From Tillus elongatus (taxonomy: Eukaryota > Arthropoda > Insecta > Coleoptera > Cleridae), in NCBI GenBank assembly GCA_964006375.1, contig OZ023267.1, positions 85,421,406 to 85,485,405 on the forward strand: 64,000 nt of DNA, read 5' to 3'. This document shows, one piece after another, positions 10,861 to 53,159 of the stretch; position 1 is the first letter of the stretch; each line of letters starts with the position of its first letter. Under the pieces are notes generated by a model, which was given only the letters and a program-made list of their open reading frames with translations, was not told the DNA's origin and did not search any database. A program made the translations under genes and the position numbers.

Positions 10861-10866
10861 CTGGAA
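10861..10866. repeat. Left target-site duplication CTGGAA
   Basis: CTGGAA directly precedes the terminal AGTAGG of the left TIR. The same six bases directly follow the right TIR at 22573-22578. A 6-bp duplication is characteristic of Polinton integrases. Confidence 0.92.
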
Positions 10867-10911
10867 AGTAGGTATAGATAGCCGGTTCTGGAACCTCCGC
10901 CAGGCTACTGC

Positions 10912-10930
10912 GCCGGCGCGAAGCGCCGGC
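10912..10930. promoter_or_regulatory. C(GNA)G mini-hairpin with 8-bp stem in TIR
   Basis: GCCGGCGC-GAA-GCGCCGGC is a perfect 8-bp stem closed by a GAA triloop. Its core GCGAAGC is the well-known extraordinarily stable DNA mini-hairpin. A shorter version, GGCGC-GAA-GCGCC, lies at 11144-11156, and GGGGC-GGA-GCCCC and GGGGC-GTA-GCCCC lie at 10963-10975 and 11010-11022. All are repeated in the right TIR. A role in replication or end recognition is inferred. Confidence 0.7.
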
Positions 10931-11073
10931 ATGACGTCACAGTGACGCCATTGGGTGGGGTCGGGGCGGAGCCCCGCCCCGCCCCGTTTTGGACAAAGCC
11001 CCACCCCGTGGGGCGTAGCCCCGCTCCTTTTGGGACGGAGACCCACCCGCCCACTTGGGCGGAGCCAAATACG

Positions 11074-11140
11074 CGACCACACCTCGACCACACCCGACCA
11101 CACCTCGACCACACCCCGACCACGCCCCGACCACACCCTC
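11074..11140 (-). repeat. 12-bp G-rich subterminal tandem repeat (GTGTGGTCGGGG type), 6 units
   Basis: Units of the form GTGTGGTCGGGG or GCGTGGTCGGGG (read on the minus strand) run in tandem. The right TIR has about eleven units at 22237-22358. The G-runs could form quadruplexes or bind a replication protein; neither is shown by sequence alone. Confidence 0.85.
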
Positions 11141-11732
11141 ACTGGCGCGAAGCGCCGGAGTGACGTTTTGGTGACGTCACTGGACAGAGAGCCAATAGGG
11201 CGCTAACTTGAGATGACGTAATCCAAGATGGCGGCCAAGATGGTCGACCGGAAGTGAAAAACGCGGGAAATTTAAATTTTGAAATGACAGGTGGTACCAC
11301 CTGTCAATGTAAGAGGATCCGCCATTTTGATTATTGGTGATGTGACGTAGGCAAAGATGGCGGTTTGCGCATGCGCAAACCTAACTTTGTTATTAAGTGA
11401 CGTAGATGTATAGTGTTTGGTGCTGTTTTACTCGGCTTGGCAAGCAGAATTCGAATTTAATGTATACGCATGCGCAAACCCAAACTTTTAGAGTTTTCGG
11501 TCTAAGCCTTAGGTGTTTGGTCTTAGAGCTCAGCAAGCAGATTTTAGAATATGTGAATGCCCGGCATGCTCGATATGGCAACATAGCAACAACTACATGT
11601 GTAGAACAACCTTGACACGTGACAGGAAATGAGTCATATGTTTACCATCTCAGTCAGATGATATTATTTAAAGAAAGCAAGATGTTAGCATTTTAAGGTT
11701 GAAAATAAAACAACTGATTTAAACACAATTAA

Positions 11733-11738
11733 TTTATT
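11733..11738 (-). terminator. Polyadenylation signal of the capsid gene
   Basis: AATAAA on the minus strand, about 35 bp past the MCP stop and just inside the left TIR boundary. The placement fits Pol II transcripts of the leftward capsid block. Confidence 0.6.
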
Positions 11739-11771
11739 AAGATAAATTCACAAGACTTACATACTAAAATA

Positions 11772-12977
11772 TTACATAATGGCTCTTACAATGCCAGTTA
11801 GAGGTTTATATTCAAATACACAATCATGAATAACTAAACAGTAGGCTTTGGTTCTATTGGGAAAATTGTTTTTACTCATAAACTCCACTTTGATGTCCAC
11901 TGTTGACGACTTGATTGACTCATTCTGGTGCTGACAGTCAATTACAAATAGAGCTCGATCTTTAAACTCATCATAATTTAGGAGAGGCTCTGCTATGTTT
12001 TTATAACAAAAACTTTTTTGAAAATCTGTGTACATCTGGTAAGCTTCAACATATTTAGATTTTTCGAAATCCATATTCATAGATTCATAAGGGTAGCATT
12101 CTGAATTGAGGAACACTCGTAGTTCTACCATACCAATATTATCAAAAAAGTCACCTTTCTTGCTTACATTATCTTTTCGATCTGTTTGAAATGCTATAAT
12201 CACATATCTAGGTCTTTCTAAGTTTGTTGCAGTTTTAACAGACCATACATCTTTATTAATATCTCTAAGCGCTGGTAGCTCATATATGTCCCATTTGCGG
12301 TATGCTAGAAATATAGATGTGTCTTTTGCAATTTTATCTATCAGTTCCAACTTCATTTTATCGTTTGGAAATACATGTTTAGCTTTTAAAAACATGTTGG
12401 TTACAGTTATTTTAGATCTTGCACTACCAGTACTATAATAACTGTTGGCATCACTTCGAGCTCTTGTAAATCGGAAAGTATGTTTACCGCAGAGAACTCC
12501 TTTAAAGTGATGGAAGAAACTGAAGAGGTACCAAAGAGGCAGGAGCAAGTGAAACTTGTTATCGTTTAAGGTGATATGATCTGACGATACATTCACTCCG
12601 GCGTTGCTAAGAGATTTAGCTTCATTCTTGCTAAACGAAAGCAGGGTTTTGATAGTTGTTGTGGTGTATGGGTCTCGTACTCGCTCCACTTCCTTGTTAT
12701 TTAATTCATACGACACTGATTCAAACAGAGCGGCTCCTCCATTATTTGACATATAACACTCACCATCGGCATTTTGTATTGCTAAAGGTTCCAGAGCACC
12801 TTCGATTATTAGAACCGACTCTGCTAGGCATACAAAGGCATCTTGCTGATTGATGTTTATTTCGACTTCATCACTGTTACCAAAGGATTTAGTTGACGAA
12901 TAGTAAGACCGAAGCTCTTCTCGATCAATGGAATCGTCAAACTCGGGGTCTTTGAATATTTTGAGTTTTGATGACAT
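11772..12977 (-). CDS. Candidate major capsid protein (MCP), 401 aa
   Basis: Probable structural shell protein of the encoded virion. The start is the ATG at 12977 (MSSKLKIFKDPEFDD), not the upstream ATG at 13070, because a TATAAAAG box and TCAGT initiator at 13046-13081 place transcription start inside that longer frame. The protein is beta-rich with few charged clusters, no membrane segment and no enzymatic motif; 401 residues fits a small double-jelly-roll MCP. Diverged relics of the same protein occur at 45180-46230, 51690-52300 and 53165-53640, keeping IPYRKWEMYELP where this one has LAYRKWDIYELP. The capsid role is inferred from length, from neighbours (penton, protease, PLA2 protein, ATPase) and from my recognition of the family, not from a fold search. 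Confidence 0.75.
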   Translation of the reverse strand: MSSKLKIFKDPEFDDSIDREELRSYYSSTKSFGNSDEVEININQQDAFVCLAESVLIIEGALEPLAIQNADGECYMSNNGGAALFESVSYELNNKEVERVRDPYTTTTIKTLLSFSKNEAKSLSNAGVNVSSDHITLNDNKFHLLLPLWYLFSFFHHFKGVLCGKHTFRFTRARSDANSYYSTGSARSKITVTNMFLKAKHVFPNDKMKLELIDKIAKDTSIFLAYRKWDIYELPALRDINKDVWSVKTATNLERPRYVIIAFQTDRKDNVSKKGDFFDNIGMVELRVFLNSECYPYESMNMDFEKSKYVEAYQMYTDFQKSFCYKNIAEPLLNYDEFKDRALFVIDCQHQNESIKSSTVDIKVEFMSKNNFPNRTKAYCLVIHDCVFEYKPLTGIVRAIM

Positions 12978-13045
12978 GATAACCAAGACTTTTAAGGAAC
13001 TCAATATTATCGGAGCGAAGTGTACACTTTGAAGTGGTTGACTGT

Positions 13046-13081
13046 ACTGAACTTGTTTTAGTAGATTCACTTGCTTTTATA
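13046..13081 (-). promoter_or_regulatory. MCP promoter: TATA box plus arthropod initiator
   Basis: On the minus strand TATAAAAG (13074-13081) is followed about 33 bp later by TTCAGTAC, with the initiator TCAGT at 13046-13050. TCAGT is the arthropod Pol II initiator consensus. The predicted start lies about 70 bp before the ATG at 12977. Confidence 0.7.
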
Positions 13082-13099
13082 TCCTTAAAGACTAGCATT

Positions 13100-13816
13100 C
13101 TAGGTAATCTTTTTAAGGTTCAGACGAACAGACACCTCTTCACCTTGAAAGTTTACAGGAACTGAATCTTGATCCACGATGTCGATGCTTATATTTGAAA
13201 TCTCTTGCTTGTTCACTGGTAAATAAATTAGATTCTTAGGTTCGATGTCGATTGCATAACCAGGATCAACCATCGGGGCAAACTCATATAACGTATGTGA
13301 AGGTTTCTCGTTATAGTAGGAACCAGACACAATATTAGTTTCTATACGAATCTGTTTAACATCTACTATTTCAACAGGCAAATCAGATTCATGGAAGACA
13401 CCTGGTCGAAGAACTTGCTTTGAAAATCCCAGCATTCGCCCAATCGAATCATCAGCTTCAAAACTGATACTTGTGAAACATTTTATTTCACATCTAATGG
13501 TGTTCGGATTAGGTCTTAGAATCAAAGCTAGTTGCTTTTGTTCATGTGTCGCTGCAGCACCAACAAGCTCATTTTGAAGCAAGTTTTCCAAATGTGTTAT
13601 TTCATATGCACCAGTAGGTATCGTGATGGTTCTCCAAGCACCTCCTTCTTTTACATAAAATATATTTTTACCTTTATATATGTTAGGTATGTTGTTGTAT
13701 GTGTGAAAACCTATCAAAGCAACAGCATAACTACCACCAGGATCCAATTCAATTGGTGGATCGTAGTCTGTTGACAGATGGGAGCTGCGGTCTTTCAATA
13801 CAAAGGTTTGCGACAT
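13100..13816 (-). CDS. Candidate minor capsid (penton-like) protein, 238 aa
   Basis: Beta-rich protein starting MSQTFVLKDRSSHLS. It has a central SIGRMLGFSKQVLRPG segment and a C-terminal run ISNISIDIVDQDSVPVNFQG, a pattern of short strands ending in a conserved D-x-x-x-x-P-V turn that I associate with Polinton/adintovirus single-jelly-roll penton proteins. It lies 123 bp upstream of the MCP in the same direction, so the two could be assembled together as vertex and facet proteins. Its stop is followed within 20 bp by the MCP TATA box. A TATA-like AAATAAAAG and a TCAGT only 4 bp before the ATG suggest its own promoter and a nearly absent 5' UTR. The penton role is inference; the gene itself is clear. 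Confidence 0.68.
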   Translation of the reverse strand: MSQTFVLKDRSSHLSTDYDPPIELDPGGSYAVALIGFHTYNNIPNIYKGKNIFYVKEGGAWRTITIPTGAYEITHLENLLQNELVGAAATHEQKQLALILRPNPNTIRCEIKCFTSISFEADDSIGRMLGFSKQVLRPGVFHESDLPVEIVDVKQIRIETNIVSGSYYNEKPSHTLYEFAPMVDPGYAIDIEPKNLIYLPVNKQEISNISIDIVDQDSVPVNFQGEEVSVRLNLKKIT

Positions 13817-13856
13817 GACTGATACACAGAGGTTACTGTTTGAGTCTTTTATTTAA
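13817..13856 (-). promoter_or_regulatory. Penton gene promoter with initiator almost at the ATG
   Basis: Minus strand AAATAAAAG at about 13846-13854 is followed by TCAGT at 13818-13822, and the ATG begins at 13816. The predicted mRNA would have a leader of only about four bases. The box overlaps the 3' end of the protease gene. Confidence 0.5.
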
Positions 13857-14285
13857 AAATTTTAAACATAAGTGACCACAATTATAAGTATTATATGTTT
13901 GATACACATCATGATTATACATTAGAGTATAGTCTTTAATGTACTGTTGCAACTCGACTGGTGGCTTTAAGTTTCCATAGGAGTCAAAGTACTCGACTGT
14001 GTTACCACGTTTCCTAACTGCAACCCAATGACTACCAGGCTCCTTGTTGGTTTGTAAATTCATGATAAACGATTCATTTTTACGTGGTCCATTTCGAGGT
14101 AGACTATCTCGCATGTATACACCTCTAAAATATGGGATTTTCATTTTACCAGCAAATTTCAGAAGATCTTCATCTGTTAGAGGTCTTGCTGGCAAACGAC
14201 TTATTCGTTTTTTGGCTTTTGCAGATACAAACCATAGCCACCACGTTGTTTCTTCAGATATAGACCCTTGCCGAGTCTCTTGCAT
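13833..14285 (-). CDS. Adenain/Ulp1-type cysteine protease (virion maturation protease), 150 aa
   Basis: Processing protease of the C5/C48 type, which in adenoviruses and Polintons cleaves capsid precursor proteins. The catalytic order is visible: GSHWVAVR (His), EYFDSYG (Asp), then QTYNTYNCGHLCL with the oxyanion Gln and nucleophile Cys near the C terminus. The N-terminal half contains PYFRGVYMRDSLP, a block typical of Polinton adenains. At 150 residues it is shorter than adenovirus protease (about 200) but holds the whole core. The ATG at 14285 lies inside the end of the PLA2 gene, an 85-bp overlap in another frame; no later Met precedes the conserved block. Confidence 0.9.
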   Translation of the reverse strand: MQETRQGSISEETTWWLWFVSAKAKKRISRLPARPLTDEDLLKFAGKMKIPYFRGVYMRDSLPRNGPRKNESFIMNLQTNKEPGSHWVAVRKRGNTVEYFDSYGNLKPPVELQQYIKDYTLMYNHDVYQTYNTYNCGHLCLKFLNKRLKQ

Positions 14286-15022
14286 TTCGGTTTTAATTTC
14301 AAACCACTACCTCTCTTACCCATTGCGATAGCCTCCATTGTTTTGTTGTGACGTTCTTCTTCCTCCAGTTTGTGTTTGGCCGCTTTAGCATCGTTTACGG
14401 CTTTAGCAATACCAGCAGCACCACCACCCAAAGCACCAAGAGCTGATAGACCACCAAATATAAGAGGTAACAGTGGTAGGAAGCCTCCGTTTTTAGGTAT
14501 TGGAATAACTCGAGGTTTCAATACATTCTTACGCCCACCAATCTGTTTAACATTTGCATGAGCGATATCAAACACTGCATTCCCTGATGGAATAAGGTTT
14601 CTGTCTTTTATAACTTCTCCAATCAGACTAAGAATGTTTTTAAAAGGAACTTTCTTCTTTGGTTTTGAGTTGGTTACATCAAGACCCATACCAAGCTTTC
14701 TTTTAACTTTCATGGTGTTTGTAACGCTCCAAGCGACTAACTTTTCACCAAAACTTGCGTCCTTTGATTTAACTCTCTCCCAAGCTCGATTCTCCAACAC
14801 CTCGTCGGCTCGATGTCTATCACTTAACTCTTTTGATTGAGAGTAAGCGATGTCGTGGTCTCTACAAGCACGGTCTAGCAGATTGATACCTTGATCACCT
14901 CTGGCAAGACGTTCTTTAAGTTTAGTACCCGGACCACAAAATTGATAACCAGGTATGTGTAACTCAACAGGCAGCTTGTTAATAGCTGTGTTTACAAGAC
15001 CTTCACCCTGTGACACCAACAT
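14201..15022 (-). CDS. Minor virion protein with parvovirus-VP1-like phospholipase A2 domain, 273 aa
   Basis: Residues about 24-65 hold a secreted-type PLA2 core: calcium loop YQFCGPGTKL and catalytic CRDHDIAYS with the His-Asp pair at 56-57. This is the arrangement in the VP1 unique region of parvoviruses, where it breaches the endosomal membrane. After a basic linker comes a hydrophobic Gly/Ala-rich segment (FLPLLPLIFGGLSALGALGG, about residues 181-200) and a helical segment. The C-terminal tail is basic, with repeats of the form GKGLYLKK and GGYGLYLQK, recalling adenoviral core or membrane-lytic proteins. An entry or membrane-penetration role is inferred from these domains. It is transcribed divergently from the ATPase, from a gap of only 79 bp. 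Confidence 0.88.
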   Translation of the reverse strand: MLVSQGEGLVNTAINKLPVELHIPGYQFCGPGTKLKERLARGDQGINLLDRACRDHDIAYSQSKELSDRHRADEVLENRAWERVKSKDASFGEKLVAWSVTNTMKVKRKLGMGLDVTNSKPKKKVPFKNILSLIGEVIKDRNLIPSGNAVFDIAHANVKQIGGRKNVLKPRVIPIPKNGGFLPLLPLIFGGLSALGALGGGAAGIAKAVNDAKAAKHKLEEEERHNKTMEAIAMGKRGSGLKLKPKCKRLGKGLYLKKQRGGYGLYLQKPKNE

Positions 15023-15101
15023 TGATACTAACTATATGACTCACTTGCATCTGTCTATATATGTTTATACTTACTGAAAATATAGTTTAGTTTAAGTCAA
15101 G
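15023..15101. promoter_or_regulatory. 79-bp bidirectional promoter between PLA2 gene and ATPase
   Basis: The gap holds CTATATATGTTTATAC, which can serve as a TATA element in either direction, and TAGTTTAAGTC close to the ATPase start. It joins the leftward capsid block to the rightward ATPase/integrase block, so both virion and packaging genes may fire together. Confidence 0.55.
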
Positions 15102-15797
15102 ATGCGTACCATTAAACACACTTCTGTCTTACCTATTACAAATATAGACGATGTTGTTGATACATCATCAGAACAACAACAAAAACATGGCCCTCTCTTG
15201 CCAAACACAGTTAGATGTATCATATGTGGCCCGAGCGGGTGTGGTAAAACAAATGTTATGCTAAGTTTATTGTTTGAACCCAATGGTTTAAAGTTTGATA
15301 ACGTGTATGTATATTCAAAGTCTCTATATCAACCTAAATACAAGATGTTAAAGGATGTGTTGAAGGCAACAAAAGATGTTGGTTACTATCCATATAGTGA
15401 AAACGATGAAATATTAGATCCAGCAGATGCCTTGGGTAACTCTGTGTTTATATTTGATGATGTAGCTTGTGACAAACAGGATAAAATGAGAGCATACTTT
15501 AGTATGGGAAGACATAAAAATATTGATTCGTTCTATCTCTGTCAAACATATACTCGAATACCGAAACATCTAATACGTGATAATGCCAATGTGTTGATTC
15601 TCTTCAAACAAGACGAAACCAATTTAAAACACATCTACGACGATCATGTAACGACAGATATGGACTTTAAACAATTTAAAAATATATGCTGTGAGTGTTG
15701 GAAAGACAATAAGTATGGTGTGTTGGTGATTGTAAAAGAAAACGAAGTACACAGAGGGAGATATAGAAAAGGATTCGATAGCTACATATTAATCTAA
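15102..15797 (+). CDS. FtsK/HerA (A32-like) genome-packaging ATPase, 231 aa
   Basis: Motor that pumps viral DNA into the capsid in Polintons, adintoviruses and NCLDVs. Walker A GPSGCGKT is at residues 43-50 and Walker B VFIFDD at 115-120. A downstream MGRHKNIDSFYLCQTY block fits the sensor region, followed by NVLILFKQD. The length matches Polinton ATPases. A relic of the same gene, with the Walker B block as STFILDDVV, lies at 50490-50960, and another C-terminal relic is on the minus strand near 41470-41630. It heads the rightward gene block; an iteron array follows its stop. Confidence 0.93.
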   Translation: MRTIKHTSVLPITNIDDVVDTSSEQQQKHGPLLPNTVRCIICGPSGCGKTNVMLSLLFEPNGLKFDNVYVYSKSLYQPKYKMLKDVLKATKDVGYYPYSENDEILDPADALGNSVFIFDDVACDKQDKMRAYFSMGRHKNIDSFYLCQTYTRIPKHLIRDNANVLILFKQDETNLKHIYDDHVTTDMDFKQFKNICCECWKDNKYGVLVIVKENEVHRGRYRKGFDSYILI

Positions 15798-15859
15798 TTG
15801 ACTACAGCCAACAACAACAAAGAGATGTCTAGCAGGACAACCAACTATCTAACAAGACA

Positions 15860-16050
15860 GACAACCTGTCTAACAACCTGTCTAAAACAACCTGTCTAAA
15901 ACAACCTGTCTAAAACAACCTGTCTAAAACAACCTGTCTAAAACAACCTGTCTAAACCAACCTGTCTAAACCAACCTGTCTAAAACAACCTGTCTAAACC
16001 AACCTGTCTAAAACAACCTGTCTAACAACCTGTCTAACAACTAGATAGGT
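15860..16050. repeat. Iteron-like tandem repeat, ACAACCTGTCTAAA units (about 12 copies)
   Basis: A 14-16 bp unit, ACAACCTGTCTAAA with small variations, repeats head to tail between the ATPase stop and the p345 start. In the decayed related lineage the same position holds a different but similar array built on CAGCTGTCTAACAGCTGT (46250-46345), and the sequence after both arrays is alignable (ATAGATAGGTAGACA, then CTTTAGC.AGATGGA). Conserved position with drifting sequence suggests a binding array for a replication or transcription protein. Confidence 0.85.
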
Positions 16051-16140
16051 AGACATACCACCAATTCGAAGCTAGTACACCTTAAACCACCAAACTGTTT
16101 GCATCTCTTAACACGATCTGAAACAAATAACTTTAGCAAG

Positions 16141-17178
16141 ATGGAGATGATGGGTAAACAAGAGAGAAAAATCAAGAAAAAGATTTTACAACTTGCCGAA
16201 AACATTCGAAAAAAACATTTAATGCTTAAGCTTGGTAGAGTTGAGAATGATGAGATCCTACAACGTTTATATAAACCAATTGTTGAACCACTAAGTGAAA
16301 TATCTAAAAACACATCGGTACTTAAACTGCAACCAACGGCTGAACAAATCAAAGAAGAAGAAGTTTCTGCTGATGTACCAGAAAAGAAACCCAAAGTTGA
16401 GTTCCTTAAAGATCATGAAGTTTTTGAAGCCGAACCAGAGGTGGAGACAAGTTCTGATGAGGATATCCCAACATTTGAAGAGCTTGAGGCAGACCTACAA
16501 ACTGTCACAAACAACCCAGCATATCAAGAATTTTTGGAGCAATATCCTGAACGAGTTCGGTATTATGTAGACAAGTATTTTACTGAACCACGGAGGCTTG
16601 CTACTATTGATCAAACGTATGGTGCTCGCTACGCTAAAGATACTGGTAGCTGGAGTCTTGGCAACAAACACTTGGACTTTACTGATAATGACATACGACT
16701 AGGTCAAAGGAGATATCCGCAAACACAAGGTCTGCTAGAATTGATATTTATGAAAACACCTAGAGGGTATACCTATGACGATCTTCAACACTATAGAGAT
16801 ATTCTAGAAGCAACAAGTGTTCATAAAATGAACTACGATCCCAACGCACGAACCAAGGGTTGTTCCTCGGAAAAGTATCTGACTCTAATAAAACCAGTTA
16901 TAAACCCACGAGGACGAAGATCCTCAACTCCTCAAGGTTTTGGCTACGACACACATCTTAATGAAGAACAAAAAACCGAACCTAGAGCTCAGAATGTAAG
17001 CAACAACTATATGATACAAAATAACAAACAAATAGAATATGTCTATTGGGATGATATAAATGAGTTGGTTGATAGACTTAGACTTTTAGTAGCTTCTCAA
17101 GTTGCTGGTAATAATGCTCATAACAACGAAATTCAATCAATCATTGAAGAATTAAAGGAAGTCAGTGTTATTGCTTAG
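16141..17178 (+). CDS. p345, conserved Polinton-lineage protein of unknown function, 345 aa
   Basis: Function unknown. The ATG at 16141 is preferred over the one at 16099 because the relic at 46495 keeps the same CTTTAGC.AG-ATGGA context. Residues about 10-75 are basic and helical, followed by an acidic stretch to about residue 125. The middle holds YGARYAKDTGSWSLGNKHLD and QGLLELIFMKTPRGYTYDDL, and the C terminus holds WDDINELVDRLRLL and NEIQSIIEELKE. I associate this domain set with widespread invertebrate mobile-element proteins (possibly Pfam DUF8207; not checked). At least six relics in this window keep the C-terminal motif, making it the best-preserved protein of the lineage. It could be a virion protein or a replication factor; the sequence does not decide. 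Confidence 0.85.
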   Translation: MEMMGKQERKIKKKILQLAENIRKKHLMLKLGRVENDEILQRLYKPIVEPLSEISKNTSVLKLQPTAEQIKEEEVSADVPEKKPKVEFLKDHEVFEAEPEVETSSDEDIPTFEELEADLQTVTNNPAYQEFLEQYPERVRYYVDKYFTEPRRLATIDQTYGARYAKDTGSWSLGNKHLDFTDNDIRLGQRRYPQTQGLLELIFMKTPRGYTYDDLQHYRDILEATSVHKMNYDPNARTKGCSSEKYLTLIKPVINPRGRRSSTPQGFGYDTHLNEEQKTEPRAQNVSNNYMIQNNKQIEYVYWDDINELVDRLRLLVASQVAGNNAHNNEIQSIIEELKEVSVIA

Positions 17179-17226
17179 TAAACCTACATATATGTCATAC
17201 ATACATACCTATTGCTTAGTATAAAA

Positions 17227-17676
17227 ATGTCTATCGATAAGTTCGGACGTTCCCAGTCCAATAAACGCTTTAAGTTTAAAATCATCGAAAGAGAACTTTT
17301 CCCAAGAACTACAAGTGGTGACTTTGATTTGCAAAGCCATATATTGTGTAACGTTGGTGATCCAATCGATCCAACAGATGTTGTAAATAAAAAATTTGTA
17401 GATGCATGGATAGATGACTATCAGAAAAACAAAGACGAAGTGACAGAAAGAATAATTGCCATCTTACTTGAAGCTGTGCACAAACCAGAGTTGGTTGATT
17501 TAAAAAACGAATTTGAAAATAAATTGAAAAATTTAGCTAAGGACATAACTGCTCAAGTTTTAAAAGACATTGATCTGTCAAAGAATAACAAGTTAAAGAA
17601 GAAGTTGGGTGAAATAGACAACAAACTAAAAGATTTACATAACAAGTGGATACTCTTAAATCCATCATCACCATGA
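17227..17676 (+). CDS. Fibre-like coiled-coil protein, 149 aa
   Basis: Starts MSIDKFGRS at 17227; a longer frame begins only with TTG. The N-terminal third contains DFDLQSHILCNVGDPIDPTD followed by VVNKKFVDAWI, the 'L-x-N-V-x-x-P-x-D-x-x-x-x-V-N-K-x-F-V-D' pattern common at the head of phage and virus fibre shafts. The rest is highly charged and helical with heptads, suggesting a trimeric coiled coil. A virion spike or fibre role is inferred. The stop overlaps the next gene's start as ATGA. Relics lie at about 39888-40640 and 53655-54160, the first with NGDPVQPSNALN and DEWIDDYQK. Confidence 0.65.
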   Translation: MSIDKFGRSQSNKRFKFKIIERELFPRTTSGDFDLQSHILCNVGDPIDPTDVVNKKFVDAWIDDYQKNKDEVTERIIAILLEAVHKPELVDLKNEFENKLKNLAKDITAQVLKDIDLSKNNKLKKKLGEIDNKLKDLHNKWILLNPSSP

Positions 17677-18617
17677 AACGGAAAATAGTTGAACCATCTG
17701 ATGCTAAGAAGCAAGTAATAAATGAGTTATACACACCAGCACGAATCAACTTCAAACGTAGACGTACCATAATTAAAGGTTTAAATGACTTGTGGCAGAT
17801 TGATTTGGCAGAGTTTCAAGACTATCATCGCGAAAACTCTGGTTACAAATACATTTTAGTGGTTATCAATTGTTTTTCAAAATATGTGTGGACTCGTCCG
17901 CTTAAATCTAAAAATGCTGAAGAGGTGACTAAAGCTATGGCTGATATTTTAGCTAATAGTACAACGCCCTCTAACGTTCAATCTGATCTTGGTAAGGAGT
18001 TTTATAACTCCAAATTTAATGCCTTAATGAAAAAATATAACATCAATCACTATAGCACTTATAGTGTGAAAAAGGCTGCAATAGTGGAAAGAGTTATACG
18101 TACCTTAAAAGAGAAGATCTACAAAAATTTCAACTTGTTTGGCTCCTACAAGTGGTTAAATACACTACCTGATGTCACTGCTAACTACAACGCTACAATT
18201 CATAGAACAACTGGTGTAAAACCTAAAGATGTTAATAAGAAAAATGAAGAAGCTATCCGTAAACAAACATATTCAAATATTAAAGTGTTTGATCAGAATA
18301 AATTCAAAGCGGGTGATGTTGTACGTCTAAGTAAAGCAAAAGCTCAATTCGAAAAGGGGTATACACCTCGCTGGTCAACAGAGTTATTCAAGATTGTTAG
18401 TGTTCATTTCACAAATCCAGTAACATACTTTCTTGAAGACATGCAAGGCAAGCCTATCAGTGGAGGATTTTACGAGGAAGAACTACAAAAGACTAAACAA
18501 ACAGACATCTATCTGGTTGAACGCATCTTGAGGAAGAAAGGCAAGAAACTCTATGTAAAATGGTTGGGCTTTGATAAATCTCATAATTCTTGGATAAATT
18601 CGGATGATGTTAAATAA
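17673..18617 (+). CDS. DDE (rve) integrase with C-terminal chromodomain, 314 aa
   Basis: Inserts the linear element into host DNA, producing the 6-bp duplication seen at its ends. The catalytic triad is visible: WQIDLAEF (D), VQSDLGKEF (D) and AAIVERVIRTLK (E), with 33 residues between the second D and the E. No N-terminal HHCC zinc finger is visible; a basic PARINFKRRR segment precedes the core. An SH3-like region follows (KAGDVVRLSKAK), then a chromodomain, YLVERILRKKGKKLYVKWLG, ending in NSWINSDDV. Such chromodomains can steer insertion to marked chromatin. The ATG at 17673 overlaps the upstream stop; one at 17646 is possible. Confidence 0.94.
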   Translation: MKRKIVEPSDAKKQVINELYTPARINFKRRRTIIKGLNDLWQIDLAEFQDYHRENSGYKYILVVINCFSKYVWTRPLKSKNAEEVTKAMADILANSTTPSNVQSDLGKEFYNSKFNALMKKYNINHYSTYSVKKAAIVERVIRTLKEKIYKNFNLFGSYKWLNTLPDVTANYNATIHRTTGVKPKDVNKKNEEAIRKQTYSNIKVFDQNKFKAGDVVRLSKAKAQFEKGYTPRWSTELFKIVSVHFTNPVTYFLEDMQGKPISGGFYEEELQKTKQTDIYLVERILRKKGKKLYVKWLGFDKSHNSWINSDDVK

Positions 18618-18652
18618 ACTTACTTATATATTTAGTGTATTAATATACTTAG

Positions 18653-18692
18653 AATAAAATAAAAGTCGTTATTAAAATTAGTGTGTTTTATT
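18653..18692. terminator. Convergent polyadenylation signals (integrase and KilA-N genes)
   Basis: AATAAA on the plus strand at 18653-18658, 36 bp after the integrase stop, faces AATAAA on the minus strand at 18687-18692, about 47 bp past the KilA-N stop. Overlapping convergent 3' ends are typical of compact DNA viruses. Confidence 0.65.
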
Positions 18693-18738
18693 TTTCCATA
18701 TTGTTACATACATACATACAATTAAGTCAAGTGAAAAT

Positions 18739-19677
18739 TTAAAAATTCTGGCGTAAATCAATAATGTCCTGAATAAACTTCTCCTGTGGCACATCAACTA
18801 TCTGCAGATCATTTCTATTCGTCTTGAGGTATTTTACTTCGGTCTTTATTCTATTAAAGAGATTTATAGAATTTGGATCATACAACATGTTTAGAACCAC
18901 TTCGGAGTCGGGATGTTTATTTTTAAAGTTTCTGACGGCTCTTCTAAAACTCTTCTTCTGGGTTCGTATAGCATGAAACGGGTACTTAGCGTCTTTCTCA
19001 TTTCTTGAAAGTAAACCAAACATACTGATTTTTCCGGGATTGCTTGGTTTTGGAGATATATCTTCAATGTGTTCTGTAACTCTAGCATCTGCTTCTCGCA
19101 TACGTTGCACTTCATCCTCTATCTCCATTAATTTCACTTCAATTTCTTTAAGGTTTTCCTTGTATTTTTGATTAAATTCGTTTACGAAAAAATCAAAAAT
19201 AATTTGGTTGCACTTTTCATAGAAAGGATTATATATCCAACAGGCTAAATTTAATATCAAATCTTTACAGACATATGTACCAGATATCAAGTTGTTTTCA
19301 GTCTGTGTTCCACCAAAGTCCACCAAGTATGTAGCGGTTGTAGGTGTTAGTTGAGATGTTGCTTCCGGCACATCTAGGGGGCCGGAATTCCGGCCCCCTA
19401 GATGTGACTCTAAGTGGATACCTTCGGTTGAAATATTTAGGTAATCGGTATTCTGGCTACCTAAATGTTTCTTCACCTGACCGTTGTAATAGGTAATCAA
19501 CTCTTTAGTTTTCTTATTTTCCAACCAATGTCTGAATCTTTTCTCACCATTTTTACATAGTTTAGTTGCATTAAAATAACCAGTGTTTTTATCAATAATT
19601 AATTGAAAGTCTCCAAATAAACCATACCAGAAGTTGTCTTTAATTTGCTGGTAGCACACATCATTTAATGTAGCCAT
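18739..19677 (-). CDS. KilA-N domain protein, 312 aa
   Basis: Probable DNA-binding regulator. Starting at the ATG at 19677 (MATLND; a longer frame starts at 19698), the N-terminal half holds a KilA-N fold with NTGYFNATKLCKNG and FRHWLENKKTKELI, then a linker with two similar blocks (HLGSQNTDYLN and HLGGRNSGPLD). A second conserved part has DLILNLACWIYNPFYEKCN, a coiled coil, and a C-terminal YPFHAIRTQKKSFRRAVRNF region resembling the DUF3627-type tail of insect NCLDV KilA-N/Bro-like proteins. Such genes are frequent in insect large DNA viruses, so it may have been exchanged with them. The linker DNA contains a perfect 38-bp palindrome. Confidence 0.85.
   Translation of the reverse strand: MATLNDVCYQQIKDNFWYGLFGDFQLIIDKNTGYFNATKLCKNGEKRFRHWLENKKTKELITYYNGQVKKHLGSQNTDYLNISTEGIHLESHLGGRNSGPLDVPEATSQLTPTTATYLVDFGGTQTENNLISGTYVCKDLILNLACWIYNPFYEKCNQIIFDFFVNEFNQKYKENLKEIEVKLMEIEDEVQRMREADARVTEHIEDISPKPSNPGKISMFGLLSRNEKDAKYPFHAIRTQKKSFRRAVRNFKNKHPDSEVVLNMLYDPNSINLFNRIKTEVKYLKTNRNDLQIVDVPQEKFIQDIIDLRQNF
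19369..19406. repeat. Perfect 38-bp GC-rich palindrome inside the KilA-N gene
   Basis: Left arm CACATCTAGGGGGCCGGAA is followed directly by its exact reverse complement, with no spacer. About 30 bp away (19434-19466) is a weaker inverted repeat, ATTTAGGTA...TACCTAAAT. On the protein level the two encode a duplicated block in the linker after the KilA-N domain. Confidence 0.95.
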
Positions 19678-19803
19678 TTTAAACACACTACTAAACACTT
19701 AGATACTCAAGAGCAGACTGAAGCACGTCTTACTTCTAAGAAAACTAAATTTTGAATGAGCTTCAGAGTATGTGTACGACAATTTATAGATGTTGACCCC
19801 ACT

Positions 19804-20304
19804 CTACGGCTTAAAACTGTGTTTATTAATGTTTATTTCCAACCACATTAGTCGCTGCAACATCCATCCACTTTCGGCTTCTGCAAACTCCAAAGATTTT
19901 GTATAAATCTCGTTGCTGAATTCCTTAAATATATTTTCAAACTCAGTTGAAACTGTGACATTTTTGTTTTTAGTATTGAATGACTTCATTTCTTTTATAT
20001 TCCGACTTTGGAGCACATACAATCCAAACAATTCCAAGTTCATTTTAATTTGATTATGTTTAGCTAGAGAAGCTTCAATTAGATGAAACACTTTATGTTT
20101 CACAGTATCCATGGCTAAGTTTATGTCATTACCATCTAAGTTAATACGATAGGTGGCCACTCTATTTTTAAAAGCTTGAGCAAGCATATGCACTTGTTCA
20201 ACTTGCCATGGCTCACATACTTTTGCCTTGTGAACTTCACTACGTAAATGTCCAGAAAATTGATTCTTTTTCACTTGTATCGAGCATGACTCACAATATC
20301 TCAT
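19804..20304 (-). CDS. p166: C2H2 zinc-finger protein resembling the leader of a PolB gene, 166 aa
   Basis: The N terminus holds a single zinc finger, CESCSIQVKKNQFSGHLRSE followed by VH (C-x2-C, H-x5-H). The middle is helical. The C terminus ends with AESGWMLQRLMWLEININKH, a motif I associate with the leader region found just before the DNA polymerase B part in Polinton-type elements. Here a stop follows five residues later and no polymerase exists downstream. A diverged relic at about 52895-53150 on the minus strand ends at the same place, arguing against a recent truncation. So p166 may be a free-standing DNA-binding protein or a fossilised PolB leader. Function unknown. Confidence 0.7.
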   Translation of the reverse strand: MRYCESCSIQVKKNQFSGHLRSEVHKAKVCEPWQVEQVHMLAQAFKNRVATYRINLDGNDINLAMDTVKHKVFHLIEASLAKHNQIKMNLELFGLYVLQSRNIKEMKSFNTKNKNVTVSTEFENIFKEFSNEIYTKSLEFAEAESGWMLQRLMWLEININKHSFKP

Positions 20305-20363
20305 CTTAACTACAGATGGTTAACTAATGAATAAAACACATGTGTTTCGTTTAAGTAGATATA

Positions 20364-20798
20364 TTAACAAACATGTTTACGATACATATCCTTAAGTACA
20401 GTGTAATGTTTAAAACAAAAGTAAATTAACATAAATAATGCAAGACACATAAGAAAACCTGTTGATATAAACATGGAAATATAATTTGAGGTAAACAGGT
20501 AAGAATTATTTAATACAAGAGTTCTCCAATCAGATGTCTCACCACGTGTACCATCATCAAACAGAAACATAAGTTTGTAATGCACCACTTCAGACTTGCT
20601 TTTGGACATGTTGTACATTGAAAGTTGTATAAGTTCATCATTGTTTAGATATGTTGTTGCTGTAAGAGCTGACCATATCATGCAGTCATCGGTGTCGAAA
20701 CAAATTCGTTCTTCTGTTACATTGGGTGGTTTGTAAATATACAACACATTTTGACATAGTGCTGTCAGGATGATGAAGCTTGCTTTAAGATGAGTCAT
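20364..20798 (-). CDS. Small type I membrane protein, 144 aa
   Basis: No family recognised. From the ATG at 20798 it begins MTHLKASFIILTALCQ, a signal-peptide-like segment, followed by an ectodomain of about 85 residues with paired Cys (ICFDTDDC) and N-glycosylation sequons (NVT, NMS, NNS). Near residues 108-130 is a strong membrane segment, MFISTGFLMCLALFMLIYFC, and then a short basic tail. This layout suits a surface glycoprotein of a virion or infected cell. The start overlaps the end of the upstream 244-aa gene by 14 bp. A longer start at 20831 would bury the signal sequence. Confidence 0.65.
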   Translation of the reverse strand: MTHLKASFIILTALCQNVLYIYKPPNVTEERICFDTDDCMIWSALTATTYLNNDELIQLSMYNMSKSKSEVVHYKLMFLFDDGTRGETSDWRTLVLNNSYLFTSNYISMFISTGFLMCLALFMLIYFCFKHYTVLKDMYRKHVC

Positions 20799-21519
20799 TA
20801 TATATCGTGTGTATTTCTTTGAAACGATCAAGTACTTGCTTCTTTGTAAAGTGTAAGCACTCTAACATACTAACTCGGAATGAAGATTCATAGTCTTTTA
20901 ACATGGCTTTTATAAGCTTTATCACCTCCTCGTCACGTGGTAGCTCCTTCTTATTAACACATTTGAGAACATCAGCAACACAATAGAGGAAATCACTAAG
21001 TCGAATATCAAAGTTCAAATCGGTTAGAAACTTCAGCTTTTCGTTGATGATTTCAACCACATCTAGTAGCCGTTGAACTGCGTCTTCGGTTAAATAAAAA
21101 GTAATAGAATCATCTGAGATTGATATACCTTTACTGTCTACTACTTTAATAGGTTTGATGGTACATATTCCAATATTTTCAGGTTCGATCTTATTAGCTT
21201 TGGTATTATTATTAGCTGTATTTTTCAATGTTGAAATAAAATACTCCCATTCCCATGAGCCAGATGAGATTGTTATATTTGTATTTGGTGCATATAAGCT
21301 TGTATTTATAATTTTAATTATTGGAATCAATCCGGCCGCTTTTGATATACCAATTGCAACACTTAGAGCTGGAGTAATGGCATACCTTGTTTCCAGTAGC
21401 ATTCTACTTTCTTGCTTAATATCACTAATATTCTGACGTAGAGCTGCATCAATTTGGCCCCAATAACAATCACAAACATTGCTATTAATAGGTTCGTCGT
21501 TAACATCCATACCATACAT
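20785..21519 (-). CDS. p244, unknown protein, first gene of the right-hand block
   Basis: No family recognised. The 244-residue protein begins MYGMDVNDEPINSNVCDCYW; residues about 45-75 form a moderately hydrophobic segment ([20 protein letters not shown]) that may be a membrane-active helix; the rest is charged and helical. It lies next to the right TIR and is followed by the membrane protein with a 14-bp overlap, so the two may be one transcript. A TATA box (TATATATAAACA) and a TCAGT initiator lie upstream at 21576-21612. Its first 106 codons are duplicated at 27131-27448 by the tandem duplication, joined there to foreign sequence. Confidence 0.7.
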   Translation of the reverse strand: MYGMDVNDEPINSNVCDCYWGQIDAALRQNISDIKQESRMLLETRYAITPALSVAIGISKAAGLIPIIKIINTSLYAPNTNITISSGSWEWEYFISTLKNTANNNTKANKIEPENIGICTIKPIKVVDSKGISISDDSITFYLTEDAVQRLLDVVEIINEKLKFLTDLNFDIRLSDFLYCVADVLKCVNKKELPRDEEVIKLIKAMLKDYESSFRVSMLECLHFTKKQVLDRFKEIHTIYNDSS

Positions 21520-21575
21520 ATTGAACAGAACAAATACACTAATATATAACTACTGGGCGCAGACTACAGACAACA

Positions 21576-21612
21576 ACTGATGTACTTGCTTGCTACCTAA
21601 TGTTTATATATA
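21576..21612 (-). promoter_or_regulatory. p244 promoter: TATA box plus TCAGT initiator
   Basis: Minus strand TATATATAAACA (21601-21612) is followed about 32 bp downstream by ATCAGTTG, with TCAGT at 21576-21580. This is the same architecture as the MCP promoter, which supports transcription by host RNA polymerase II. An identical copy sits in the duplicated unit 5929 bp to the right. Confidence 0.65.
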
Positions 21613-21723
21613 CTTATACCCCCACTTTTGGCTTGTTATTGAAACTCATTTAACCGTCATCGGTGTTGTTGCTATGGCATGTTTGTTAGAACAATATTTG
21701 TCGAAGGTCACTCTCAAATTTGA

Positions 21724-22572
21724 AAACATATGACTCATTTCCTGTCACGTGTCAAGGTTGTTCTACACATGTAGTTGTTGCTATGTTGCCATATCGAGCA
21801 TGCCGGGCATTCACATATTCTAAAATTTTTAAAATCTGCTTGCTGAACTCTAAGACCAAACACCTAAGGCTTAGACCGAAAACTCTAAAAGTTTGGGTTT
21901 GCGCATGCGTATACATTAAATTCGAATTCTGCTTGCCAAGCCGAGTAAAACAACACCAAACACTATACATCTACGTCACTTAATAACAAAGTTAGGTTTG
22001 CGCATGCTCAAACCGCCATCTTTGCCTACGTCACATCACCAAAAATCAAAATGGCGGATCCTCTTACATTGACAGGTGGTACCACCTGTCATTTAAAATT
22101 TAAATTTCCCGCGTTTTTCACTTCCGGTCGACCATCTTGGCCGCCATCTTGGATTACGTCATCTCAAGTTAGCGCCCTATTGGCTCTCTGTCCAGTGACG
22201 TCACCAAAACGTCACTCCGGCGCTTCGCGCCAGTTAGGGTGTGGTCGGGGCGTGGTCGGGGTGTGGTCGGGGCGTGGTTGGGGTGTGGTCGGGGTGTGGT
22301 CGGGGCGTGGTCGGGGTGTGGTCGAGGTGTGGTCGGGCGTGGTCGAGGTGTGGTCGCGTATTGGGCTCCGCCCAAGTGGGCGGGTGGGTCTCCGTCCCAA
22401 AAGGAGCGGGGCTACGCCCCACGGGGTGGGGCTTTGTCCAAAACGGGGCGGGGCGGGGCTCCGCCCCGACCCCACCCAATGGCGTCACTGTGACGTCATG
22501 CCGGCGCTTCGCGCCGGCGCAGTAGCCTGGCGGAGGTGGCGGAGGTTCCAGAACCGGCTATCTATACCTACT
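21724..22572 (-). repeat. Right terminal inverted repeat (849 bp)
   Basis: Inverted match to 10867-11643. It differs mainly by having about eleven rather than six 12-bp units (22237-22358) and an extra 9-bp GGCGGAGGT unit near the end. One of the two NRF-1-like sites is altered here (GCGCATGCTC). A further copy is at 27653-28501 through the tandem duplication. Confidence 0.93.
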
Positions 22573-22578
22573 CTGGAA
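22573..22578. repeat. Right target-site duplication CTGGAA
   Basis: Identical to the six bases before the left TIR. It is repeated at 28502-28507 in the duplicated unit. Confidence 0.92.
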
Positions 22579-23042
22579 ATAACCAAGTAAGGGCAACCAA
22601 ATTAGATAGGTCTGTTTGTATTATAAAGAGTACACCATGTGTCAAAATTTAGGTCTATAAGTTTAAAGACAAAAAAGTTATTGGTAGATACTGAATTGTA
22701 TATTTTAAGTTTGGGGCTCTTTTTTTATTGAGCTTAAATTGTCAGCAGCAAACTCTGGCAGAATAGGAAATAGAAGTTAAATATCAATAAAATGAAAATG
22801 AAAATGATTACTAGATGTAATGTTGTCAATGTCAATGGATTATATATTCGCAAGTCATACAATTATTGAATTAGCAAATTAAGTAAATGTTACGTGATAG
22901 CAGTTAATATGCGTTGCATTTCTAAAGACACAATATAAATTGGCGACGAATGAATGGAAGAAGTTACGCAGGCAGAACATGTGATTTGTTTAGTTTTGTG
23001 TAGTGTGGTAAAGTCAAGAAATTGGAATCATAATAATGTCTG
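22579..23042. other. Non-coding flank of the Polinton-like element
   Basis: AT-rich sequence between the right target duplication and the LINE fragment. No frame or repeat structure was recognised apart from its copy in unit 2. Confidence 0.4.
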
Positions 23043-23309
23043 AGTTTTTTATTTTTTTTATTTCAACAACACTCCACGAGGGCTACAGCCTAAATACTAT
23101 CGTACCGTGGGTGTCGACAAGGAGGAAAGAGGCAACTTGTTAATTCTGGACTTGAAGGTTTGGAGGTTCGGAGGAGAAGGAAAACATGCGCCGGCAAGGA
23201 ATTCCACAAGTTGGAAGTCTTCGGGACAAAAGAGCGGGCATAACAAACTGTTCTATGTCTGGTGACCTGGACAGTAAAAGGGTGCATTCGCTCTGTTCCC
23301 CTGGTTACT
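23043..23309 (-). mobile_element. 5'-truncated LINE 3' fragment (unit 1)
   Basis: On the minus strand it encodes RGTERMHPF, RHRTVCYARSFVP and NLWNSLPAHVF, matching the C-terminal end of the ORF2 at 1-2610, and ends in the shared 3' UTR and an A-rich tail. The 5' break lies at ACCAGGGGAACAGAG. It is too short to code for anything functional. Confidence 0.9.
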
Positions 23310-25394
23310 TTTAACATAAGAGTGTCACAATACATACATTTTTTTCATCTGAAAAAATAATGCTATGAGACGACGCCGCAATGTCATAAAAATAATTTTA
23401 AAATGAAGACCATAACCACTTATGAACATAACCTAATTTCAGATTTCTATCAATTTTGATTCACTATATACTTCTAATACTCCATCAAGTTTGGCCCACG
23501 CTTTATATATAATTTTGATACAAGTATATAATGTGGTGGTATTTGGTGGTTTCAAATTAGTAATGCAAATTAGGTTAGCTGCGATTTCTATGAAATCCTG
23601 TTTTCGAGATTGTCATTTTAGGACTAAGGGTACAACAATTATGCTATTTAACTAATCTGTAAGTATGTATAAAGTTTTCACATGACCAGACAGACGATCC
23701 TAAATTTGATGTCTGTGATGGACAAACCTTCCCTTTAAATCTTCATTCATGTCCATGAGGCGTTTCTTGTATGGTTGATAATCTGCAACACAATTATAAA
23801 AAAATTAGATGCATACAAACTTCTAGATTGTACATCTATATGTGAGGTATATAATAAACCTAACTACCCAACCAATAGCCCCAATAAGGATCCAGATGAA
23901 AGCCCCACTATAGACAATACAGGACCGCCAAGCGACAGTTTGATCTCTTTCAAGTCTATGGTTGAATACACCAAGGCTTTAGAGATGATATCCGTTGAGA
24001 TTTAGAGAGTAGGAAGATTAAGACTCCATAATTGAACTACAACCCAACCTACACCTAACCATCACTCTATAGATTAGGCAGATTAAGGCCGAAAGAGTTC
24101 TATTCCATCCATATTTTACTCAACCTCTTGAAAATGACAAATGGCTACTTTTTGAAATAAAGATGTAATAAACATTTCATAAAATGATTATATATGAATT
24201 ACTACACTGTAACCACTGCCATGGTTGAGATATTAATTAAAGAAGTATATATATTTAAAATAAACCAAAAGTTTTATTTGTGTAAATTCAGCTGTTTATC
24301 ATTTATAAAAATGAACACATTAGCTTCCACGTGACCTTCCACCTACAGCGCCATGTAATCAATTTAACTTTAATGCTTAATCTGCGTCGACTGCTCCAAT
24401 CAAATGAAGCAATATCTTTTGCTCTGGGCTTTAGTTATTAACCGCAAAAACACGTTTCTATTGTATTTGAAAATATTACACAAGTAGCAAGGAGGTATGC
24501 AGTAGCAAAAACGGCCATCTTTCAGCATTGTATTGTATGTAGTAGGACTTCACCCGGCTTGAATTAGAGCTCTTGCTTCATCACTGTTTGCTTCCAAAAG
24601 TGTTCGAATTGTTGTAACTATACCAGGATTTCTCACATGTTCAATAATCGGGCTGCTGCATTAGATGTTACTTGTACATCTCCAATCGTAGCAGTCGTCT
24701 CTCTACTGCCATTTATTAGTAGAACAGCTGAAGGGCAAACGAAAAAATATCTTGTTGCTTGATTGCAGAATCACAGGTATTATTATGGGCAACCGAACTG
24801 GTTTGAGAAGCCTATGTGTGTATTCCTTTCCCTTTGATTGACTCGTCGTGCACAGGGTCAGCGAATATATGTAGTCTGCTAAATATCGGTAGCTAATTAA
24901 TCTAGATACTGCATGTGCTCCCAAGATAGAATCGTCTTATGCAGGTAGCGAATATACTGAAGGTGGGGCGGCTTGATTGCTGGTATTTATAATCAACATA
25001 ATATGGTGGTTTCTGTCTCAATTCCAATATCACAATAATCTCCTCACCTTGAAACGTCACAAGTACTCAATTCTGATCGACGAAGTTTACATTTATATGC
25101 GAAATAATGCGAGTCGTAAGAGGGATAAAAACCTTACTATACGGTTTTATCTCAAATCTATATAAGGTTTAATTGTAGATAAGGTAGAAACCTAAAGGAC
25201 GAGAATAATGAAGAAACAGGTAGTATTATGAAGACACGTACACTTGGAGAACTCAAATAACTACAATATGTTTAAAAAATCCTGACGATCGTTTCCCTAA
25301 CCGAGTTAACGTCATCAGGGTTATAATGATCTTAAATATGTTACATCTATATCTCTGCTTATATTCTTTTACAGGTAGTTGGTCACTAACGTTA
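23310..25394. other. Non-coding interval (unit 1)
   Basis: No supported gene. A word pair, CACTTGGAGAACTC and GACGATCGTTTC...CATCAG, occurs near 25236-25330 and again at 10080-10170, 25995-26090, 43190-43290 (inverted) and 47370-47460. It marks a dispersed repeat of unknown class. Small open frames here exist only because the segment is duplicated. Confidence 0.45.
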
Positions 25395-25745
25395 GTGAAT
25401 GGGTGAACTAATTTTTCTCAGAAAAGTATCTAACTCTAACGAAACCAATGACAAATCCTTGAGCGGAACATCCTCAACTCCTCACGTTTTTGGTGACGAC
25501 ACACATCCTAACTTAAAACAAAAACCCAACCCAAAATTCACAATGTAAATGATAGAAAAATCAGCACTAACAAGTGGATGATACAAAATAACAAGCAAAT
25601 AAAATATGTGAATGAGGATGACATCAATGAGTTAGTTGATATACTTAGAGTTCTAGTGCCTTCTCAAGTAGCTGATAATAATGCCCATAACAACTAAATT
25701 CAATAAATCATTGAAGAACTGAAAGAAGCAGATGTTATCTCCTAG
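25395..25745 (+). pseudogene. p345 relic, C-terminal part (unit 1)
   Basis: Alignable with the C-terminal third of p345: DDINELVDILRVL, then SQVADNNAHNN and IIEELKEADVIS, ending at the homologous stop. Several stops interrupt it. The intergenic sequence after it, up to the start ATG of the coiled-coil gene (ATGTCTATCGA), is kept before homology stops, so gene order was the same as in the intact element. Confidence 0.85.
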
Positions 25746-26800
25746 TAAAGCTTCATATATCATACATGCCTGCCTACTGCTTAGTATAGAAATGTCTATC
25801 GAACAAACACATTGTATAGCTTAGTTAAAAATATACGTAATGAACACAAAGTCATAGTGACTGGCACTCAAAATATCAACAAAACTGAATGTAACCGTCA
25901 TCTCATTTATAAATGACACAAGCTGGACGGTTTAATTGTAGATAAGGTAGAAACCCAAAGGACTAAAATAATGAAGAAACAGGTAGTATTTTGAAGACAC
26001 GTACACTTGGAGAACTCAAATAACTACAAGATATTTAAAGAAACCTGACGATCGTTTCCCTAACCGAGTTAACGTCATCAGAGTAATAAATGATCCTAAA
26101 TATCTTACATCTATATCTCTGCTTATATTCTTGTGCAGGTAGTTGGTCACTAACGTTAAACAACTAAAAAATTAACATATTTGTATCGGCGGAAATACCT
26201 AAATTACTTTATTATCTATCGTACTTGCTCCTGCTGATCTTTCTTGTACATAAGACCCTACTTTCGGTCTTCCTGTCTGACAATAAATAATAATGAAAAG
26301 CCCATCTACAACATCTGAATTTAGGAAGGATAAAGAAACCTTTAAAGTTCCTTTAAAGTACAGTAAAGTTATAATAAGGACGTTGTGTAAAGTTAAATTA
26401 ATTAATACATTTGCTTAGAGGCCTGTACAAATGACGGTGCACTTCATACAAGATTTTTTTTCATCTTACTTGACTGTAATTTTCCAAAACGTTCAGCCTT
26501 TAAAAGCATATATGAAGGATATTATTGCAGATGAATGCTATTTGTAAACATCGATTATACTACTTGTTGAATCTTCGACAACTCAGCAGGATGATATTCA
26601 GATACCTGACCATATTAGAATTTACACATCTTATGTAAAGAGCAAGAGATATCCATGTGGTTCTACGATATACATCAGCAATAATTTAAAATCAGATCAA
26701 TTTAAAATTTTGTTTGAAGACAATTGCAAAACTTTGGATTTTGTGTAATATACAAACCACCATTTACCCCATCCACGCAGTTAAAGACAAATTCAATAAG

Positions 26801-26997
<197 letters not shown>

Positions 26998-27130
26998 TAA
27001 ACGGATGCCAGAATACGGTGATTTTTGGTGATTTCAATGTAAACATTACAAAGAAACAAAGCAGTTCATTCTTAAATTATTTTACAAATAAAATGTTCAA
27101 TATTCTAACATCACAATCGTCTATTGTCGT

Positions 27131-27448
27131 GGTATTATTATTAGCTGTATTTTTCAATGTTGAAATAAAATACTCCCATTCCCATGAGCCAGATGAGATT
27201 GTTATATTTGTATTTGGTGCATATAAGCTTGTATTTATAATTTTAATTATTGGAATCAATCCGGCCGCTTTTGATATACCAATTGCAACACTTAGAGCTG
27301 GAGTAATGGCATACCTTGTTTCCAGTAGCATTCTACTTTCTTGCTTAATATCACTAATATTCTGACGTAGAGCTGCATCAATTTGGCCCCAATAACAATC
27401 ACAAACATTGCTATTAATAGGTTCGTCGTTAACATCCATACCATACAT
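27131..27448 (-). pseudogene. Truncated duplicate of p244 (unit 2)
   Basis: The first 106 codons are identical to p244 and then run into unrelated sequence from the end of unit 1, giving a 123-codon chimaeric frame ending at 27077. The promoter region upstream is intact, so a truncated product could be transcribed. Confidence 0.9.
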
Positions 27449-32729: not shown

Positions 32730-32886
<157 letters not shown>

Positions 32887-53150: not shown

Positions 53151-53159
53151 ATGAAGCAC

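Follow-up and report, generated by a model that had tools for sequence, protein, structure and literature searches.

How an element of the Polinton type is copied when it carries no polymerase of its own is the question raised by a locus in the genome of Tillus elongatus, since encoding a polymerase is the defining feature of Polintons, which are called self-synthesizing. The analyzed window (the whole 64-kb stretch, G000:C6:85421406-85485405, of a 1.72-Gb assembly of 30 contigs) contains at positions 10867-22572 a Polinton-type element of 11,706 bp, for which the initial annotation had reported the lack of DNA polymerase B (PolB) on both strands and had proposed a distinct replication strategy relying on host polymerases, a helper, or an unrecognized protein (p345, p166 or p244). 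The absence of PolB was found to be a state of the family, combined with intact frames, independent insertions and purifying selection, and at all sampled loci of this genome the PolB genes and the capsid and integrase genes were located on different elements. A two-component Polinton system, in which the window element would be the virion-and-integration part and PolB would be provided in trans by separate elements, has in our estimate about an even chance of being the right explanation.

In family scans, none of the 12 element proteins matched a polymerase family, and tblastn of eight PolB open reading frames (ORFs) from the same genome against the window gave nothing below E = 0.51. A profile of four own-genome PolBs, run with filters off against 1439 six-frame stretches, yielded best E-values of 0.12 in the window and 0.5 in the element. 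The claim that PolB is missing on both strands was thus borne out by all three approaches, and the profile searches proposed along with it, on the twelve proteins and the six-frame translation, gave no remote PolB match. As a control of the method, profiles of the major capsid protein (MCP) and of DUF8207 detected degraded copies in the same window stretches with E-values down to 1.1e-24. The weakest point of the PolB absence is the best blastp match of PolBs to the 12 proteins: 29 residues of p149 aligned at E = 0.055, a match taken as chance. Likewise, the 12 proteins contained no helicase family above the cut-off and no family of an alternative replication protein (helicase, primase-polymerase or pPolB-S1H). 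The element and its borders comprise the following features (TIR, terminal inverted repeat; DJR, double jelly-roll; strand in parentheses).

10861..10866: left target-site duplication, CTGGAA
10867..11643 (+): left TIR, 777 bp, first letters AGTAGGTATAGATAGCCGG
11772..12977 (-): MCP, 401 aa, DJR-like PF21738 (E = 3.5e-77)
13100..13816 (-): p238, likely a minor capsid or penton protein, judging by position and co-occurrence
13833..14285 (-): maturation protease (PRO), 150 aa, Peptidase_C48 (E = 3e-5)
14201..15022 (-): 273-aa protein with phospholipase A2 (PLA2) domain PF08398
15102..15797 (+): packaging ATPase, 231 aa, Pox_A32 (E = 6.6e-9)
16141..17178 (+): p345, with homologs carrying PF26634 (DUF8207)
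17227..17676 (+): p149, weak tail-fibre-like PHROG matches (E = 0.003)
17673..18617 (+): integrase (INT), 314 aa, rve above cut-off (E = 5.7e-12) and Chromo below cut-off
18739..19677 (-): Kil312, 312-aa protein with KilA-N and DUF3627
19804..20304 (-): p166, stand-alone multicopy gene under purifying selection
20364..20798 (-): p144, no match above curated cut-off
20785..21519 (-): p244, no match above curated cut-off
21724..22572 (-): right TIR, 849 bp, ending in the complement of AGTAGGTATAG
22573..22578: right target-site duplication, CTGGAA

The TIR of the window element starts with AGTAGGTATAG. The two arms mismatch at 7 of 776 aligned columns, with gaps in 74 further columns, and have different copy numbers of an 11-bp minisatellite. 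Together with CTGGAA on both sides and reading frames open in 12 of 12 ORFs, this confirmed the annotated ends, 6-bp duplication and twelve intact genes. Above the Pfam cut-offs were DJR, C48, PLA2, A32, rve, KilA-N and DUF3627, and no family exceeded the curated cut-off in scans of p238, p149, p166, p144 and p244. Homologs of MCP from named species scored best in the beetles Molorchus, Sitophilus and Diabrotica. A homolog of p238, itself without a family match, occupies the equivalent place in a second capsid family, with a 407-aa MCP frame. The Chromo match of the integrase (E = 2.7e-4) is under its cut-off and agrees with the chromodomain given for the Sf Maverick integrases in the cited passages of PMC5803895. 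Approximately 13 copies of a 14-bp unit are arrayed at window positions 15826-16037, between the ATPase and p345 genes. The element has the rve integrase, DJR capsid, packaging ATPase and cysteine protease of autonomous Polintons/Mavericks, as well as TIRs with AG...CT ends and the 6-bp duplication, and lacks their protein-primed PolB. It is therefore of the Polinton type by the other features tested; it was not filed as an autonomous Polinton because PolB was tested for and not found.

The family was assessed on scored subsets of the genome candidates (150 of 3078 for p166, 103 of 7357 for MCP and 150 of 1988 for p244, the latter with 152 matches). The first-look totals of 7357 MCP and 3078 p166 candidates suggest a very large expansion of Polinton-type elements. 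The 150 p166 matches fell into identity groups near 99, 92, 81 and 79%, with 131 free of stops; since most lie in frames about 171 codons long, p166 is a stand-alone gene. No stop was present in 91 of the 103 listed MCP matches, among which a large subfamily was found at 92%. In the 20 best p166 loci, read 1.5 kb to each side, Kil312, p144 and p244 were present in 20/20 and INT in 19/20, and PolB in 0/20. A same-strand p244 lay within 20 kb of MCP in 65 of the 103 MCP loci, mostly at 8.4-9.1 kb. All seven copies for which both ends were fetched begin AGTAGGTA[TG]AGAT, are 11,236-11,962 bp long and are flanked by seven different perfect 6-bp duplications. Own-genome PolB queries against 40 further capsid- or p166-type loci gave nothing (best profile E = 0.29).

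Between subfamilies, the ratio of nonsynonymous to synonymous substitution rates (dN/dS) was 0.14-0.23 for p166 (seven pairs, dS > 0.49), 0.18-0.20 for the KilA-N gene Kil312 and 0.13-0.17 for INT; p166, integrase and KilA-N are under purifying selection at this level. Less clear values were obtained for three close p166 pairs (0.27, 0.43 and 0.56) and for p144 (0.22-0.48), and the MCP compared with locus L037 gave 0.27 at a saturated dS of 2.0. The p166 gene was kept in every sampled subfamily of this kind, including the divergent L037-L040. These data support the absence of PolB as a family trait. A deletion scar was ruled out by PolB in none of the 20 p166 loci over the stretch read (1.5 kb to each side), by the length of 11.2-12.0 kb in seven of seven copies and by the p166 slot retained in L037-L040; among the loci read, no PolB-bearing sister accompanied by a scarred copy was found. 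Family-wide decay was ruled out by the stop-free MCP (91/103) and p166 (131/150) matches, single copies being broken: frame breaks, deletions or insertions occur in several p166-locus copies (L018, L020, L025, L026 and L035 among others).

PolB genes were found elsewhere in the genome. A search with PF03175 gave 809 candidates, 77 of which were scored as PolB loci, many with open frames near 1040 aa, and two PolB elements were delimited (18.8 and 19.3 kb), both with 6-bp duplications and AGTAG termini. The class A element (C3:63180244-63199015, read whole, in separate pieces) is flanked by GGAATG and has the ends AGTAGGTAATG / AGTAGGTAATGCGG and TIRs of about 1.65 kb with 218-bp tandem repeats inside. 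It contains a PolB ORF of 1044 aa, a 121-aa ORF with a 64% match to the PolB N-terminus, a truncated p166 fragment, a 560-aa ORF of the matrixin-hemopexin type and a 137-aa ORF, which is probably the C-terminal exon of PolB because its class B counterpart is in frame with a DTDS-type motif. A further locus of class A, on C7, matches the C3 element at 94-97%, and its right end was reached (AGTAGGTATTG / AGTAGGTATTGGG). The class B element (C8:59433184-59452449) is flanked by AAAGGG, has the ends AGTAGTTAG / AGTAGTTAGTGGG, and PolB is present in each of its two inverted arms. In nine places, two PolB genes face each other at a distance of 7.7-16 kb (C8:59436082(+)/59449006(-) and eight others); in the pair that was read, on C8, PolB lies inside the inverted terminal arms. 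A 560-aa matrixin-hemopexin ORF inside PolB elements (L009:1767-3449, L011:1627-3309 and L014:8390-9901, with 505 residues seen in the last) is perhaps a captured host metalloproteinase.

In the pieces of PolB elements read, the MCP, ATPase, PRO, PLA2, INT, p238 and p345 of the window element gave no match at E = 0.05, nor did the INT, ATPase, PLA2, p345 and p238 counterparts of the second capsid family. The sole matches of the window element at this threshold were the p166 fragment and 22 residues of p144 (E = 0.04), and the MCP and DUF8207 profiles reached best E-values of 0.29 and 2.4. Two other explanations would do without these PolB elements. Copying by host enzymes alone, either as cut-and-paste by the integrase with gap repair or as host replication of excised DNA, would agree with the kept integrase and TIRs and with the lack of a recognized replication gene; it appears improbable, given the retained packaging genes, the long, near-identical TIRs (7 mismatches per 776 columns) and the abundance of Polinton-type PolB in the genome. 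A relation to a large DNA virus of insects as its satellite, comparable to that of virophages to giant viruses, is suggested by KilA-N with DUF3627, a pair familiar from large insect DNA viruses, and is very improbable, as the genome itself contains Polinton-type PolB.

Capsid and PolB genes were separated at every scored locus. None of the 103 MCP loci lay within 25 kb of a PolB locus among the 77 scored, the closest approach being 32.8 kb, and the same was true of the 126 capsid loci scored among 5790 candidates of a DJR family search (0/126; nearest, 66 kb), the two capsid sets together making 229. The force of this result derives from a control in which p166 was located within 12 kb of MCP in 31 of 50 MCP loci. 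In the second capsid family, matches to ATPase, INT, PLA2, PRO, p238-like and p345-like sequences were detected in the 18.3 kb read around the capsid gene, without any match to PolB over that length and without a match to p166 before the right end of the element, which begins AGTAGTATGGATAAGCGGGTTCTGG. The window element could still be a gene-rich satellite using the PolB of complete, autonomous Polintons outside the scored loci, with no reciprocal dependence. The majority of the PolB and capsid candidates are outside the scored set, and Sf Maverick 1 and 2, as described in the cited passages of PMC5803895, join PolB with the same set of capsid, PLA2, ATPase and integrase. We consider this alternative unlikely, though the strongest of the rivals, in view of the 0/229 scored capsid loci near a scored PolB and of the second capsid family, whose 18.3 kb are also without a PolB match.

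Among the element's own proteins, p345 had 129 homologs at E <= 1e-3; among the 120 matches listed, these were widespread in insects and carried PF26634, some being named DUF8207 (Popillia, Tribolium and an ant) and others coming from the genera Cotesia and Microplitis and from a bracovirus, whose protein bears the name Maverick ATPase. When p345 itself was scanned against Pfam, PF26634/DUF8207 was not among the families reported. Its structure model (mean pLDDT 76, pTM 0.48) has a well-modelled core of about 140 residues, which, together with the insect-wide DUF8207 homologs, makes a replicase role of p345 improbable. No polymerase signature was found in p244 or p166 by family scans or, for p166, by profile comparison. 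A likeness of p166 to the N-terminus of the PolBs of arthropod Polintons may exist; its comparison with the own-genome PolB profile gave a probability of 0.4%. Its structure model is poor (pLDDT 42), a protein search that excluded long proteins by design gave no match, and a profile scan of IMG/VR revealed no relatives; IMG/VR scans with MCP, its profile and the DUF8207 profile gave nothing informative. In a sister subfamily, a 272-aa ORF (L038:1310-2128) occupies the p144/p244 slot and has an HEHMHALIHF stretch (H-x-H); part of it recurs inverted at 576-923. This ORF is reminiscent of HUH/Rep nucleases, but family and structure searches gave no match, and phage tblastn was fruitless. One of these proteins (p166, p244 or the 272-aa protein) might act as an unrecognized initiator working with a host polymerase, a role for which the conservation of p166 in each sampled subfamily of this kind and the H-x-H stretch in the p144/p244 slot might speak. 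The lack of a family match for all three, the 0.4% result and the 407-type element without p166 before its right end make it a distinctly improbable solution, slightly more so than host-enzyme copying. Of the options in the initial annotation, the unrecognized protein was accordingly weakened, by the DUF8207 homologs of p345 and by p166 and p244 lacking a polymerase signature, and the helper was favored, PolB being found on separate AGTAG-ended elements with 6-bp duplications.

In the two-component system, the window-type element would supply the capsid, protease, ATPase and integrase, and its DNA would be copied in trans by the protein-primed PolB of the separate elements of the same genome, which would copy linear DNA with suitable ends; such complementation would be the simplest mechanism. 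The window-type integrase would insert the PolB elements too, and its capsid would perhaps also package them. The AGTAG ends and 6-bp duplications in common fit one integrase and one priming system, an agreement short of proving exchange. Replication in trans, reciprocal dependence and virions are inferred. In its fuller form, this would be a bipartite Polinton, whose complementary integrated elements (capsid with integrase, and polymerase) would multiply only together and be inherited as separate chromosomal insertions; we hold this form tentatively, as somewhat less probable than not.

Several points weigh against the two-component explanation. For 126 and 77 independent loci, 0.28 pairs would be expected by chance, so that zero is not below chance and shows only that the scored loci are not one element. 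A complete Polinton with PolB and capsid may exist among the candidates outside the scored 77/809, 103/7357 and 126/5790. The termini in common with the window element are short (8 nt for class A, AGTAG for class B), and AG ends are general for Polintons. The class B element was read save for 2.2 and 1.3 kb, and p244 showed a dN/dS of 0.74 at a dS of 0.03 between close copies.

As for the surroundings of the element, a direct duplication of 5.76 kb was found in the window, positions 21201-26959 recurring at 27130-32888 with 99.88% identity. It starts inside p244; consequently, two copies of the element's right end and flanking sequence are present. It arose either by segmental duplication in recent times or as an artefact of assembly. 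Degraded relatives, with pieces of MCP, p345, ATPase, p149 and p166, occupy positions 24450-54650, and at 51786-53159 MCP, p162-like and p166 sequences follow the same order as in the L037 kind. The broken ORFs at 55452-60569 resemble a retroelement of the gypsy type, with sequences like those of gag, reverse transcriptase and integrase (judged by eye and by a weak tblastn match of the integrase).

Known systems share some of these features. In the cited passages of PMC5803895, Sf Maverick 1 and 2 resemble the window element in their ATPase, rve integrase with chromodomain, PLA2-bearing protein, cysteine protease and Maverick gene set, whereas their POLB ORF of about 3500 bp is on the same element and PolB here is on other elements at the sampled loci. 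Polinton-like viruses (PLVs), according to the passages cited from PMC4642659 and PMC11071308, share the capsid module and ATPase and mostly lack pPolB. The rve integrase and the protease, both present in the window element, are missing from most PLVs, and PLVs have other replication proteins, whereas no replication protein was recognized in the window element. For some integrated PLVs, resident Polintons were proposed as the source of an integrase acting in trans (PMC4642659, passage cited). In Bidnaviridae, a Polinton-derived PolB is carried by one segment of a bipartite genome with conserved termini; these are, in the part of PMC4061559 cited, small single-stranded DNA viruses with a parvovirus-derived capsid and no integration, unlike the DJR capsid and chromosomal insertions found here. 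The combination of a parvovirus-derived capsid and S3 helicase is absent from the window element. Mavirus-like virophages share the DJR capsid, rve integrase and reliance on another replicon, and mavirus differs in its own pPolB and in its dependence on a giant virus (in part from the cited passages of PMC11071308); no sign of a giant virus was seen here, where no search aimed at one was made. In the titles, abstract openings and cited passages of the literature, no PolB-less or split insect Polinton was recognized.

The coexistence of a large conserved population of PolB-less elements with polymerase-only elements in which no integrase is detected would demonstrate that the module can split into interdependent elements, in parallel with multipartite viruses and with the origin proposed for bidnaviruses. 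If true, it would provide a natural example of satellites and helpers coexisting within a single genome, and a bipartite Polinton would be, in effect, a multipartite virus kept in the host genome. Should reciprocal dependence be shown, it would represent a life style new to the Polinton group.

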